Shown: positions 10,344 through 37,430 of the stretch, piece by piece
Layout: every line of letters begins with the position of its first letter
Numbering within the stretch: position 1 is the stretch's first letter
Assembly (NCBI GenBank): GCA_031280235.1
Contig: JAITHA010000092.1
Location: 1 to 37,430, forward strand
Reading direction: 5' to 3'
DNA length: 37,430 nucleotides
Origin: Puniceicoccales bacterium
Lineage (GTDB): Bacteria; Verrucomicrobiota; Verrucomicrobiia; Opitutales; UBA953
Program-made: the position numbers and the translations under genes
The notes under the pieces: model-generated
Database searches by the model: none
The model's input: the letters and a program-made list of their open reading frames with translations, nothing else
Told to the model about the DNA's origin: nothing

Positions 10344-11372
10344 TCAGGCCTCGCCACGAACGGTCTGCACAAGCGCTTCCACGTTTTCGATCCTAGCACT
10401 CGGCTGGATGCCATGCCCCAAGTTGAAAATATGCCCAGCGCGGCCCTCCATGTCCGCCAGCACGGCCCGCACACCAGCACGCACGCGCCCGGGCGTAGTG
10501 TCCAGCAAGCCCGGTTCAAGGTTCCCCTGCACTGCCACGCGCCCGCCTGCATCCGCCTGCACAACCGATAGGGGGCGAGCCCAGTCCACACTGATGACGC
10601 GCGCGCCCGTCGCCGCCAGCGCCGAGGCATGGGCCGCCATTCCCTTGGCGAAAAGAATGACTGGGAAATCTCCCGGAAGAGCGGCAATCACACGGCGTAT
10701 CCAGCCCAGTGAAAGGCGCTGGTAATCGGCATCGCCGCACAACGCGCCCCAGCTGTCAAAAATCTGCACAGCATCCGCGCCATTTTCGATTTGCATGCGC
10801 AAATAGGCCGCCACGGCCTCCGTCAATTTCTCCATCAACGCCGAGAATAATGTGGGCTCCCTGTCCACCATCTCACGCAAACGCTCTGCCTGCCCGGGGC
10901 CGGCGCCCTCCACCATGTAGGCGGCCAACGTCCAGGGCGACCCCGCGAAACCGAGGAGCGCCGTCTGCCCGTCGAGCTCGGCACGGATCAAACGCAAGGC
11001 GCGCGCGACATAGTCGAGCCGTTCGCAAACGACCCCCGCTCCGGCAAGAGCAGCCACCTGCTCTGCCTGGCGCAGTGGGAAGTCCATGCGGATGCCACCA
11101 TCTTCGCAAAAATGATAGCCTTGGCCAAGAGCCTCAGGGATGACGAGGATGTCGCTGAAAAGAATGGCGGCATCAAACGCGAAGCGCTTGATGGGCTGGA
11201 GGGTCACCTCTGTGGCAAGCTCTGGCGTGCGTACAAGCGTCAGAAAATCATGCCGGGCTTTGAGCGCGCGATACTCCGGCAGGAAACGCCCCGCTTGGCG
11301 CATCAACCACACAGGCGGGCGGGCCAGAGGTTCACAGCGGCAGGCTGCCAGAAAACGTTCGCGTGCGTTCAT
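10344..11372 (-). CDS. hemE: Uroporphyrinogen decarboxylase
   Basis: MNARERFLAACRCEPLARPPVWLMRQAGRFLPEYR signature; ...LFSDILVIPEALGQ..., IFNLGHGIQP near the C-terminus. Confidence 0.95.
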   Translation of the reverse strand: MNARERFLAACRCEPLARPPVWLMRQAGRFLPEYRALKARHDFLTLVRTPELATEVTLQPIKRFAFDAAILFSDILVIPEALGQGYHFCEDGGIRMDFPLRQAEQVAALAGAGVVCERLDYVARALRLIRAELDGQTALLGFAGSPWTLAAYMVEGAGPGQAERLREMVDREPTLFSALMEKLTEAVAAYLRMQIENGADAVQIFDSWGALCGDADYQRLSLGWIRRVIAALPGDFPVILFAKGMAAHASALAATGARVISVDWARPLSVVQADAGGRVAVQGNLEPGLLDTTPGRVRAGVRAVLADMEGRAGHIFNLGHGIQPSARIENVEALVQTVRGEA

Positions 11373-26586: not shown

Positions 26587-27160
26587 ATGAGCAGCTCCTG
26601 CCAAGACAGGTTTTCGCTGCGTTACGAACTCGTACGCTGCGCCCAGAGAAACGGCATCTGTACATGCACGCGCCAGTTTCGCCTGCTCCCGCAACACCGT
26701 GCGCGAATGGCTGCGCCGCTGGCGCGCAGGCGACCACACCCTCGCCATCACCCACATGATCAAACACCTAAAAATCCACGGTGTGGATCTCAAACACGTT
26801 GAAGTGCGCACCGGTCTGGGCACCGAGTTTGACGGCGACACCGTTCATTACCGCCCCAAAGTCTTCTGCAGCGCCATTGCGACCATGGGAGCGTACCACC
26901 ACTTCAGTCCGCCCGCGCGCCCCAACTGCAACGTCGGCGTCGAAAGTGTCCACGCCACCATCGAGAACGAGTTCTTCGATTTGGAGAATTTTTCGGGCCG
27001 CGCACACGTCATGGCAGCTGCGGGCACCTATCAGCACTATCACAATTTCGCCCGGAAAAACCGCTCGCGCGCCAACAAAACCTCGGTCGAGTTGCTCCGC
27101 GAAAAGGCACCCAATCTGTACCCTCGCATCCTCCTTTTACGCCCATGCCTTCTCGACGCC
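26587..27160 (+). pseudogene. IS481-like (rve integrase) transposase remnant, frameshifted and internally deleted
   Basis: FSLRYELVRCAQRNGI..ARQF, +1 shift near 26680, then ACSRNTVREWLRRWRAGD (HTH), joined to the catalytic C-terminal part VDLKHVEVRTGLGTEFDGDTVHY...HHFSPPARPNCNVGVESVHATIENEFFDLENF...RKNRSRANKTSVELLREKAPN. Confidence 0.8.
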
Positions 27161-27163
27161 CAT

Positions 27164-27186
27164 ATGGGTCAACTTCTGTCTAGACC
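27164..27186 (+). repeat. Putative IS right-end terminal repeat
   Basis: ATGGGTCAACTTCTGTCTAGACC; its RC GGTCTAGACAGAAGTTGACCCAT matches 34641-34663 at 20/23 positions. Confidence 0.65.
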
Positions 27187-27258
27187 TCCCGTGTTTCCGC
27201 AGAGCCACACAAACGCTCTGGACATACCCCCGCTCCTGCCTACTTCTGTACCGTTCCC

Positions 27259-28155
27259 ATGCACATTGAGAACTTGAAAGTTTTCGTGAGCCTTGCGGAG
27301 ACGCAAAGTTTCTCCCGAACAGGCAAACTGCACGGCATCACCCAATCCGCCGTCAGCCAGCAACTGCGCGCCTTGGAGAACCACTTCGGCGTCCAGATCG
27401 TCGACCGGAATCAGAAGATCTTCCGCCTGACACGCGAGGGCGAATGCCTCCGCGCAGCAGCGCAAGACATCACGCGTGGCTACGACATCCTGATAAACGA
27501 CCTCAAGGAAATGCGCCACGAGATCGCCGGCACCATTCGCCTCTCCACGATCTACAGCATCGGGCTGCACGAGTTGCCCCCCATCGTGAAACACTTTCTC
27601 TCCAAATACCGGACAGTGGACGTGCGTATCGCCTACCGGCGCTCCAACCTCGTCGTGGAGGACATCTTGCGCGGCGAGGCAGACTTGGGCCTGATCGCCT
27701 ACCCGACAAAAACGCGCGACCTCGAGGTCATCCCCTTCGCCGAAGACTGCCTGGTAGTCATCTGCAATCCGGCGCACCCCTTGGCAAAACGCAAAAGAGT
27801 CAAGCTCGCCGAGCTAGCCAGCCAGTGTTTCATCGGCTTCGACCACGACATCCCGACACGTAAGGCGACCGACCGGATTTTTTGCGAATACGGCGTCAAA
27901 CTCGTCCCCAGCATGGAATTTGACAACGTGGAGACGCTCAAGCGCGCTGTGGAGGTGGGCGCCGGGGTGGCCCTCGTGCCGGCGGAAACGGTACGCCAAG
28001 AGGTGGCCCAACAAACACTTGTCGAGCTCTCGCTGGAGGACTGCCACATCAAGCGCCCGCTCGCCTACATCCACCGCAAGACGGCCGTCCTGACGCCCGC
28101 AATGGTGCGCCTCGTGGATACCAGTACGGAGCTCGGCAAAGCCTCGCTCACGTGA
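27259..28155 (+). CDS. LysR-family transcriptional regulator
   Basis: N-terminal wHTH MHIENLKVFVSLAETQSFSRTGKLHGITQSAVSQQLRALENHFGVQIVDRN; substrate-binding domain with GVALVPAETV. Confidence 0.95.
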   Translation: MHIENLKVFVSLAETQSFSRTGKLHGITQSAVSQQLRALENHFGVQIVDRNQKIFRLTREGECLRAAAQDITRGYDILINDLKEMRHEIAGTIRLSTIYSIGLHELPPIVKHFLSKYRTVDVRIAYRRSNLVVEDILRGEADLGLIAYPTKTRDLEVIPFAEDCLVVICNPAHPLAKRKRVKLAELASQCFIGFDHDIPTRKATDRIFCEYGVKLVPSMEFDNVETLKRAVEVGAGVALVPAETVRQEVAQQTLVELSLEDCHIKRPLAYIHRKTAVLTPAMVRLVDTSTELGKASLT

Positions 28156-32968: not shown

Positions 32969-33029
32969 TATCTGCCGCCCAAATCAGACCTCTCTTCAAC
33001 TGGCTTTCTATCTCGTGACGACACTATCT
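32969..33029. repeat. Degenerate ~60 bp dispersed repeat, copy B
   Basis: tatctgccgcccaaatcagacctctcttcaactggctttctatctcgtgacgacactatctt; matches 550-614; abuts the nuoM stop. Confidence 0.6.
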
Positions 33030-34567
33030 TAATAAGATAGCAGATTGAGCAGCAATTGCGGCCAGATGCCTAGCAGCAGCATCAACGCTGCCACGGGTAC
33101 CAGTACCAGTATCTCGCGGCGCGTCAAATCACTTACCGACGTCGTGTGTACCCCAAATTCTCCGTGAAATACGCGCTGCCAGAACGTCAGCAAGAAAACC
33201 GCAGTGCCGAGCAAGCCGAGCGTCGCCACAGCCGCCACCCAAGGTTCCAAGCTGAAAACGCCTCGAAAAATCATGAATTCACCCGCGAAACCATTGAGAC
33301 CAGGCAAGCCGAGCGACGAGAACAACGCCACCCCGCAAAGGGTCGCAAAGACGGGCGCCGTTCTGCGTACGCCACCGAAATCTCCCAATCCGCGCACCCC
33401 AGAACGGCTCTCAAGCACCCCGGCGCAAAAAAACAAAGCCGCCGCCGAAAGCCCGTGGTTGAACATCTGCAGCCACACACCCGCGAGGGCGCAATCCCGG
33501 CTCGCCGCCACACCTATTTCCACGGGGTCGGCAACCCTCGCCACGGCAAAAAAACCCAGCAAACAATACCCCAAGTGATTTACCGATGAGTAGGCCAACA
33601 TACGTTTCATATCGCTCTGGCGTATCGCGGCATAGGCCCCCAGCACAATGCCTGCCAGCGCCAGCCACAATAAGTAGGGCGCCGCCACTGAGAACTCTGT
33701 CGGGAAAAGACGCAGCAGCAAAAAGCTCACCCCCCAAAGCCCCATCTTCGACATGATGGCTGTGAGGAACATCGACACCCCGGGCGGCGCCTCCGCATAC
33801 GTCGCAGGCAGCCAAGTGTGAAACGGGAACATCGGCACCTTCACCGCCAACCCGAGCAAGATGCCCAGAAAAACAAGACTCGGCGCCCCGGCACCGAATT
33901 TCCCCGCAATCTCAGACGTCAACGCCACACCCTTCAGCGCCAACAAGTCCCAGTGCAAGGTGCCCGTCGCCGCGTAGATGATAGCTAGAGCGAGCAACAT
34001 AAACGCGCTCCCGCCTATTGTATAGACTACAAACTGATAGGCCGCACGCCCAGCCCCTGGGCCACCCCAAAGTTTGATGAGAAAAAACGCCGGGAAAAGG
34101 CTTAGCTCCCAACACAGAAACCAGAAGACAAGATTGCATGATAAAAAGACCCCGAGGGCTGCGCTCTGGACAAGCAAAAACAGAGTATTGAAAAGATGTG
34201 CCCGCTCCACCGTCCACGAGGCCAGCAACGACAAAGGCGCGACAACGCCCAACAACAACACCAACAGGAGCGCCTCCGGCATCAGTCGTAGATCCAGCCC
34301 AACCCCAAGTGGATGCGCCACCTTCGCATAAAAAGCAAAGGACGATAAAGGAACGGCATTTTGCGCCAGCACCCCCAACGCGAGCACTAAAGTCGAAAAG
34401 CTGAACCCAAGCCCTATGGCACGTGCCACGTGATTTGGCGTGCGGGGACAAAGCGCGAGCACCAACGCCCCAAGCAAGGGCAACGCCCAGATGAGCAGCG
34501 GCACGAGCCCTGCCGCCCTCCCAGCACCAATGCCCGTCGTCGCTAAAGAAAAAACGAAGGAATCCAT
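33029..34567 (-). CDS. nuoM: NADH-quinone oxidoreductase subunit M
   Basis: LCWELSLFPAFFLIKLWGG; VKVPMFPFHTWLPATYAEAPPGVSMFLTAIMSKMGLWG; AYSSVNHLGYCLLG. Confidence 0.94.
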   Translation of the reverse strand: MDSFVFSLATTGIGAGRAAGLVPLLIWALPLLGALVLALCPRTPNHVARAIGLGFSFSTLVLALGVLAQNAVPLSSFAFYAKVAHPLGVGLDLRLMPEALLLVLLLGVVAPLSLLASWTVERAHLFNTLFLLVQSAALGVFLSCNLVFWFLCWELSLFPAFFLIKLWGGPGAGRAAYQFVVYTIGGSAFMLLALAIIYAATGTLHWDLLALKGVALTSEIAGKFGAGAPSLVFLGILLGLAVKVPMFPFHTWLPATYAEAPPGVSMFLTAIMSKMGLWGVSFLLLRLFPTEFSVAAPYLLWLALAGIVLGAYAAIRQSDMKRMLAYSSVNHLGYCLLGFFAVARVADPVEIGVAASRDCALAGVWLQMFNHGLSAAALFFCAGVLESRSGVRGLGDFGGVRRTAPVFATLCGVALFSSLGLPGLNGFAGEFMIFRGVFSLEPWVAAVATLGLLGTAVFLLTFWQRVFHGEFGVHTTSVSDLTRREILVLVPVAALMLLLGIWPQLLLNLLSY

Positions 34568-34640
34568 GGAGAAAAATGTATCCCAAAATAAAGGCCTGCT
34601 TTTGGCAACGCGTTAGATAAAAGATGACGGAAACACGGCA

Positions 34641-34663
34641 GGTCCAGATAGAAGTTGGCCCAT
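34641..34663. repeat. Solo IS terminal repeat (cognate of 27164-27186)
   Basis: GGTCCAGATAGAAGTTGGCCCAT, 20/23 identical to the RC of 27164-27186. Confidence 0.55.
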
Positions 34664-34929
34664 GCCGAGAGATCCCGCATTTTCTCCATTGCGTTGCGGC
34701 ACTTTAGCCTTCCGTCTGTCGGCCGCTTAGCTCTCAGCAGACATACATAAAATTATTCCCCAAACTTGCCGTTGCGTTGCTTTTGTTGCGACCTTTGGGT
34801 TTTTCCAGCTCGCCGCGCAAACCGTTGCGCAGACCGCGCTGACAATGGGAGGGTTCGCCGGGTTGCGTGCACCGGGCGCGGCGCTGCGGAGTGCAAAGAG
34901 TCGGCTGGCCGGAACCGGTGAGCCGCTGA

Positions 34930-37430
34930 CTTTGGAACCGACTGTGGAGCTGGATTCTCGCGAGGCTGGCGCCGGGGTTGAGCTTGGTGCCGTGCAGCCG
35001 AAGCAGGACACGGTCACGCTGGAGGGGTTGTCAGAGTTTGAGGGCGGAGCTTGCGCGGCGTTTGCGCGGGAAGGATGCTGCGGATTCTGTGGAGGCTCTG
35101 CGTGCGTTCTGGCGGCGTGTCGAGGTGCGGCGTGCGGCAGCGGCGAGGTCGCCGGAGGAGCTGCGGCGGAGGGAGGAACAAGCCCGGCAAAATCAGCGTG
35201 CGCGGGAGGAACGCGAGCAACGCGAGGCGGACTTTGCGGCGGAAGGCACACAGGGACGTTCGGACAAACCGGTGTCGCCTGTGGTGATCGTGTCAAAGGC
35301 AGGTCTGGACAGGATGAGTCTTGGATCGGTGTCGCGATGGGTTCGCACTCAGTTTGCGGGAAGGGTTTTTCGCAACAGGGATTCGAGGTGGAATATTGGC
35401 GTGTCTTCAGAGGGGGCAAAACACGCGGCGACACAAACGCGGGGAACTGCGCGTCAGTCCATGGAGGGATTGGACAATCTCATTGAAAATGCTATCTGGA
35501 TGGGGCGCGATAGAAACACGAAACCTGAGGGAACTAACAAAAACATTCGATGGTTCCACCGCTTCTACGTTCCGTTTCAGGTGGGACAGAAGCGATACGT
35601 TGCCAAACTGATAGTGAAGGAAACCCTGAATGGCGAACGATTCTATGATTTGCGTTCTGGCGAAATTAAAACGCTGGCGCGCCCAACAGATGAGCAAGGG
35701 GCAATTCCCCCAACACCAGCGCCGAGAACAGTTTCGGATCTGGCGGAGGCTGTCAAGCGGCTGTGGCCTGCGGATGCGATTGATTCGACTGCGCCTCGCA
35801 ATGAGCGGCGGGAAAAGGTTGGGCCGAGGGTGGATTTTGCGAATGAGGCGGATGAGGCGGAGGGCGCGGAGGGCGGTCTGGATGAGGCGGAAAAGGCTGC
35901 GGTGTTGGAGCGGGTGCGGGGGGCGTTCCCGTGGTTGTTTGGGAACTATGATATTTTGCTGGGGGATTTGAACCGGGCGTTGAGGGAGAGGGGTTACAGC
36001 GGGCCGATTCCGGATGCGGCACTGGCGGCGCGGCTGGGTGTGTCTGACCAGGCGCGGCGGGTGCGGGGGGAACGGGATTTGATTGTGATTTCTGCGCGGG
36101 CTTGGGATGAGCAGGGGCGCGGGGCGGCGCTCTTGATGCATGAGGCGGCGCACGCGTTCATGGACAGGCTGCCGGATGCGACGCTGGCTGAGTTGCGGGA
36201 GATGTGGCGCAAGGAAATCTCCGCTCGCACGGGGCCGCTCTACACGGATGGGGAGCTCAATTCGCCACTGGCGCATGTTGAGGAAGAGAGCGAGCGGGGG
36301 TTCAAGGAATGGTTTGCGGAGCGGGTGGCGCGCCTCAATGCGGAGTGGGCTCGGGCGCGGTTGGAGGGGCGGGGTGAGACCGCTCGCGTGGATAGTGTGT
36401 CTCGGATCGGGAGGCTGGCGCGGGCGTTCAGGGATTTCATGCGCAGGGCGTGGGAGAGTTTCGCGGGGCTGTTCAGGGGGAAGGCGTCGGCGGGGCAACG
36501 GGAGCTTTTCGAGCGGAGGTTCCGTCAGTGGTTGGTTGATGGCGAGGTGGCGTTGAGAGAACCGCGAACGGCGCGAAAGGCGCGAACAATTTATGGAAGC
36601 AATCAAGCTGATGGCAATGGTGATGTGTCTGCTCGCGCAGACAGTGAGCATGTTCCGGGGCGATCCTCTCTCGGTCGTGATGTGGGCGATGATGGGGATG
36701 TCGCTCCGGGCGATGCCTTAGGCGCCTTTGGCCAGGCGAAACGGGCGAATCCTGACATCAATTTCTTTGATGCGTGGCATGGGTCGCGGGCGAGGTTCGA
36801 TAAGTTCCGGATGTCAAAGGTGAAGTCCGGGCAGGGTTCGAACACGTTTGGGTATGGGCTGTATTTCGCGTCGCTGGCAGATGTGGCGAGGGGCTACGCG
36901 GGGATTGTCCCGGGCAGGCTGGGCGCGTTCTCGGTGGGAAACAAGGGTGAGCATGTGCAGATTTTCCTTAACGGGAACAAGGAGCCGGAGCGCGGTCCGC
37001 TGATGGGCAATCACGTCCTTGCCGCGCTCTTCAAGGCATACAAGGATTCTGACAAGAATCCACGGAAGGTGCGGGAGGTCCTGCTGATCCGGCTGGGCGA
37101 TCGGAGGCGGATGCGGCTGGAATCGGGCCCGGCGCATGAGGGGCTCCTTGAGGCGTTGCGTCTGGTGGAAGCGGGTAAGGTGCGCTTCCAAAAGGGGCGG
37201 CTGCCGAGGTCGGTTTACAAGGTGAAGATCCACGGGGACAAGACGGTGGATGAGCTGAGCTTTTTGGATTGGAACAAGCCTGTCCCGGCGTCGATGCGTG
37301 CGAAGGTGGACGCGGCGGTGTTGGAGATTTACCCGGAGGGTGTGCCGCCGTGGTTTCGCAATCCTGAGCAGACCGGGGGCGAGCTTTACAAGGCGCTTAC
37401 CAAGGAGCTTGGGTGGGACAAGCAGCGCGC
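34930..37430 (+). CDS. Phage/conjugative-element polyvalent-type protein, partial (runs off the right edge; probable upstream frameshift)
   Basis: Frame 1 has no stop from 34930 to the window end, and the supplied ORF track misses it because it is unterminated. Contains an LPD3-like region (~35455-35665: MEGLDNLIENAIWMGRDRNTKPEGTNKNIRWFHRFYVPFQVGQKRYVAKLIVKETLNGERFYDLRSGEI), HEAAH at 36139-36153, and an ART-like domain (~36757 onward: FFDAWHGSRARFDKFRMSKVKSGQGSNTFGYGLYFASLADVARGYAG...SVYKVKIHGDKTVDELSFLDWNKPVP...TGGELYKALTKELG). True start unknown; the first in-frame ATG is at 35314. Confidence 0.8.

Follow-up and report, generated by a model that had tools for sequence, protein, structure and literature searches.

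Background

Polyvalent proteins of the phage type are chains of modules that include LPD3, an ADP-ribosyltransferase (ART) of the HYD type, a metallopeptidase, MuF_C and LPD38, and their relatives are encoded in prophages among virion genes, as described by Iyer et al. 2017 (PMC5512222). Here we analyze a fragment of such a protein, encoded at the right end of a 37,430-nucleotide contig (JAITHA010000092.1) from a Puniceicoccales bacterium. This contig, which we call the window, is the whole stretch of DNA that was analyzed; it is the entire contig C27, which leaves no room for extension to the right, of a metagenome-assembled genome (MAG; G000) of 1.76 Mb, in 100 contigs and 83% complete. The fragment is a further member of an already known kind of protein. 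However, it differs from the described phage-type proteins in that the window copy sits by itself next to nuoM, its modules are joined by repeated [VA]DFAxE linkers, and related modules also lie in frame inside housekeeping enzymes. We consider it quite likely that the window carries a phage-type polyvalent fragment, most probably a displaced or decaying copy, and that housekeeping genes of a sister species have likewise taken up modules of these families.

Module exchange among polyvalent proteins has been described before. In the Helicobacter prophage mosaic protein jhp1044/HP1116, LPD3 is part of a polyvalent protein whose modules are constantly shuffled; in the available part of that report, the mosaicism is described within the phage protein, and housekeeping insertions are not noted (PMC5512222). 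Inteins resemble the insertions reported here in being domain-sized, in frame and located in essential genes, but the sites here lie between domains and not in active sites; Pfam scans of the interrupted proteins revealed no HINT or homing endonuclease domain. Rickettsia palindromic elements, which are short palindromes, likewise illustrate that extra coding sequence is tolerated in frame in housekeeping genes. In contrast to those elements, the inserts here encode LPD3 or MuF_C domains, and inverted repeats flank the uvrA insert only.

Results and discussion

Domain content of the window frame

The frame lies on the forward strand (34930..37430). It is open from 34930 through 37428, giving 833 residues stop to stop, and is unterminated at the contig end, as an initial annotation of this DNA had stated. 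That annotation began the feature at 34845, but this position belongs to another frame (34845-35486) that has no Pfam or PHROG match. The possibility that the latter is a frameshifted N terminus was dropped: some weak coding signal exists near 34781-35000, but the frame has no homolog. In the 34930 frame, the earliest start-like codon is TTG at 34978, and homology to a relative starts at about residue 81, near 35218.

Sequence comparisons confirm that this frame encodes part of a polyvalent protein, one of the phage type, with LPD3, zincin-like and ART modules, the last apparently of the HYD class. All three modules had been proposed in the initial annotation, and of the two Pfam families that it named, LPD3 was matched well above its cut-off and ART-PolyVal below the curated one. 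The LPD3 domain (Pfam PF18798; residues 118-223, 35329..35646) scores 71.9 bits (E=6.5e-20), where the cut-off is 27, and there are three LPD3 copies within this MAG. The further description of LPD3 as nuclease-associated is not supported: the domain has no established nuclease role, and its assignment as a BECR nuclease was dropped because profile comparison detected no relationship between LPD3 and MuF_C. Linkers between modules occur at 35227..35244 (ADFAAE) and 35830..35847 (VDFANE), and linkers of the [VA]DFAxE form are also found in C48, a second contig of the MAG, and in three contigs of the congener G002.

The zincin-like metallopeptidase module (36133..36573) has HEAAH at residue 388 (36139-36153). 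An HExxH motif arises by chance in 1.3% of shuffles of the same protein, and a Pfam scan of this module matched no peptidase family. Residues 386-532 align to a 2589-amino-acid polyvalent protein from another genus of the same order (G212:C25), with 34% identity over 152 amino acids (E=1.7e-7). The alignment keeps HEAAH and a downstream E-W-A/F-A-E motif, which is E-W-F-A-E in the window.

The ART-PolyVal-like module (36742..37428) matches its Pfam family with E=1.7e-4, which is under the curated cut-off, and residues 591-782 match a Burkholderiales polyvalent protein (L113) with E=3e-8; the module matches the C48 protein at 77%. The H and Y motifs are present, at 36772 (AWHGS) and 36856 (GLYFA). 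The third catalytic position of the HYD-type class is an aspartate (PMC5512222), and the third expected motif (VVFDD in C48) falls past the contig end. AlphaFold models had confidence scores (pLDDT) too low to support a fold search, 49 for LPD3 and 40 for the part spanning HEAAH and ART.

A second copy in the same genome

C48 encodes a 2135-amino-acid fragment whose modules are ordered ART, MuF_C, LPD3, a second MuF_C, and LPD38 near the C terminus; ExbD-, ExbB- and TonB-like chromosomal genes follow. At the 5' end of C48, an LPD3 domain is cut by a sequence resembling an insertion sequence (IS) and reading as a transposase C terminus, which is common to the ends of C97 and C80 and the start of C51.

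Between C27 and C48, the ratio of nonsynonymous to synonymous divergence (dN/dS) of the ART module is 0.39, which shows that this module has been under purifying selection. Synonymous divergence (dS) is 0.45 upstream and falls to about 0.06 across the last 76 codons. This abrupt fall indicates a recent recombination tract between the copies. The near-identical tract occupies 37235..37430 and is probably the reason that the C27 contig breaks where it does. A G002 contig (C89) starts at a DKQRA motif, precisely where C27 stops.

A transposase fragment in the window (26699-27277) is common to C27, C51 and C97, and on C51 it is fused in frame to a polyvalent-protein scrap (L017:6099-6866). In G212, LPD3 is apparently inserted in a helical C-terminal polyvalent module (L143, contig C36) that is unbroken in C48.

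Modules inside housekeeping genes

In the congener G004, LPD3 lies in frame between the S-methyl_trans and Pterin_bind domains of MetH (L059:3805-8577), between the ATPase halves of UvrA (L060:8980-12246, reverse strand), between the catalytic and anticodon-binding domains of ValS (L064:3383-7096, reverse strand), and before Helicase_C in UvrB (L067:6-2738, reverse strand). A GlcD-like FAD oxidase (L158:1-2361) has MuF_C inside it (E=3.8e-12). AlaS (L049:1-2709) has an insert of 252 residues that is probably also a polyvalent-family module; its LPD3 score is weak and under the cut-off (E=0.009). By alignment to solved structures, the insert sites are at residue 427 of UvrB, 297-303 of AlaS and 590-609 of ValS.

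In each of the eight congeners searched, UvrB has no interruption, as EVRPI or a close variant directly joins (K/Q/A)GQVED, and the G004 gene carries exactly 189 extra codons. The ValS insert region is missing from G000, G005, G007 and G008. Six congeners lack the MetH insert, but it is present in G003 (L061:3855-5738), whose contig stops just after the insert, with the 3' half of the gene outside it. Between G003 and G004, this insert shows a dN/dS of 0.26 and 70% identity, compared with 0.33 and 69% for the enzyme part. Because the insert is as conserved as the enzyme, it is most likely older than the split between these species.

The inserts are domains of approximately 190-290 codons and belong to several different subtypes. 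Their nearest relatives are mostly modules of polyvalent proteins. The valS insert shares 55% identity with C48 from the MAG of the window, and the uvrB insert is 38% identical, over nearly its full length, to a Burkholderiales polyvalent protein. For alaS the nearest relative is the LPD3 protein encoded on the prophage contig of G004 itself, and for glcD it is the MuF_C domain of C48. The metH and uvrA inserts are nearest to each other (52%) and next to other LPD3 proteins, mostly polyvalent. Since the nearest relatives differ from insert to insert, these are not copies of one element.

An inverted pair of 80 nucleotides flanks the uvrA insert. Transposition through flanking inverted repeats was rejected as a general route, as no such pair was present at the other inserts tested. 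Repeats of the GGGGAGCGGGGAG type are read in frame in housekeeping genes of G004 (L060:10049-10128 and 10895-10974; L064:4289-4351). That only in-frame inserts were observed is attributable to survivor bias.

We lean toward the view that LPD3 and MuF_C are domain-sized mobile cassettes that have repeatedly entered core enzymes in frame, at sites between domains, and that purifying selection has kept them there, with the polyvalent genes of the window's genome forming part of the reservoir. A literature search of limited reach found no precedent for polyvalent modules inside core enzymes.

Polyvalent proteins are regarded as one-way phage weapons. If the above view is true, and modules have settled and been conserved in tRNA synthetases, DNA-repair proteins and metabolic enzymes of the host, phage effector arsenals also supply essential proteins with new domains. 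This raises the questions of whether the inserts oppose the phage protein, be it as decoys, immunity factors or regulators, and of how domain-sized DNA moves yet keeps the frame. LPD3, a domain without a known function, gains several contexts in which it could be assayed.

Genomic setting and probable phage provenance

To the left of the frame, 11 kb of sequence was read and is chromosomal except for one transposase fragment. The neighbors of the window copy are nrdD-, lysR-, serA- and tolQ-like genes, the transposase fragment, and nuoM. Beside the window frame we saw no integrase, tRNA, attachment-site (att)-like feature or phage structural gene, and no relaxase or type IV secretion system gene was among the neighbors read. 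The window copy was not found among virion genes; its left neighbors are chromosomal.

Polyvalent genes elsewhere in the family do occur with phage genes. In another genus of the family, a prophage (G010:C3) has an integrase (E=7.5e-28), terminase, head-tail adaptor, tail proteins and primase, and its last gene, convergent with the integrase, encodes a 3395-amino-acid protein with LPD3 and ART-PolyVal. Contig C9 of the same genome has an open reading frame of 4122 amino acids with LPD3. In the congener G004, a tail-protein gene is followed by an LPD3 protein (C155). A 2511-amino-acid polyvalent piece with four ART-PolyVal stretches, two PBECR5 domains and LPD3 lies beside pyrC in G007 (C64). 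In G002, two truncated polyvalent pieces directly abut tRNA genes: one adjoins tRNA-Ala (L019:2579-2654) and purD (C126), the other adjoins tRNA-Asn (L018:1054-1128; C127), and the same 119-bp repeat opens both contigs. Overall, LPD3 is present in 10 of the 79 genomes of the family, including in non-phage genes, and in 19 of the 373 genomes of the order, mostly within polyvalent proteins.

The initial annotation had allowed for either a phage or a conjugative element as the source. The evidence favors the phage part of this proposal over the conjugative part: LPD38 is present in C48, another genus has a prophage with such a gene, and no match was found in 72,556 plasmid records. LPD38, which is not inside the window fragment, is reported solely from phage-type polyvalent proteins (PMC5512222). 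In IMG/VR, scans with the window protein and with that of C48 yielded no relative, and a scan with LPD3 found two loci only.

Proposed explanation and alternatives

By analogy with the polyvalent family, from which packaging, injection and catalysis are taken, we infer the following scheme. The polyvalent protein would be a giant product of late phage expression, presumably carried inside the virion and released together with the DNA. The zincin module would probably cleave the chain into units, and the ART module would probably modify host proteins. As for what the sequences themselves show, recombination within the genus swaps modules between gene copies, and copies and pieces lie scattered over the chromosome with no phage remaining. 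Modules of the same families have entered housekeeping genes of a sister species in frame and been retained.

Several observations weigh against this explanation. Because the contig breaks off within the ART module, the intactness of the window copy cannot be judged, and phage structural genes were not seen adjoining it. The 5' end of the frame has no ATG start and its coding signal is weak there. The dN/dS of 0.39 could date from selection that preceded decay, and the genus-level data all come from fragmented assemblies. Some of these points would suit a dead remnant of past prophages and IS activity that gives no protein product, as would the IS-like end that cuts LPD3 in C48 and the fusion of a polyvalent scrap with a transposase fragment in C51. 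A clean frame of 833 codons and the selection recorded between the C27 and C48 copies argue otherwise, and we regard this alternative as plausible but somewhat doubtful. It is unlikely that an intact prophage or other mobile element begins with this frame and continues past the contig, its left edge lying beside nuoM as the initial annotation proposed. Such an arrangement would resemble the gene at the prophage edge next to an integrase in G010:C3 and the G002 pieces beside tRNA genes. However, the window copy has no adjacent tRNA, integrase or att-like feature, and the 5' end of its gene faces nuoM, whereas that of the G010:C3 gene faces virion genes. Moreover, the left side is chromosomal, the contig probably ends where it does because the assembly broke within the near-identical tract, and the C48 copy in the same MAG runs into chromosomal genes.

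Two further explanations have little to recommend them. The in-frame inserts could be assembly chimeras or a binning artefact, and five of the six interrupted genes are indeed known from a single MAG (G004). Yet every insert keeps the frame and is flanked by both halves of a recognizable gene, uvrB is longer by exactly 189 codons than in eight congeners, and the metH insert recurs in G003, which has another isolate label, having diverged there as much as the enzyme; we therefore find an artefact very unlikely. Even less probable is an origin of the fragment in a conjugative element. Conjugative elements also carry polyvalent proteins (PMC5512222), but LPD38 in C48, the plasmid search without a single match, and the terminase and tail genes of the prophage in which relatives lie all speak for phage.

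Additional features

The interval between nuoM and the frame (34568..34929) has no tRNA and no protein match to any locus compared. The neighboring chromosomal gene nuoM (33029..34567, reverse strand) is separate from nuoL and nuoN, both here and in some congeners. In G212, a solo LPD3 frame of 137 codons (L165:7350-7763, contig C30) lies a few bases 3' of a leuB-like gene.
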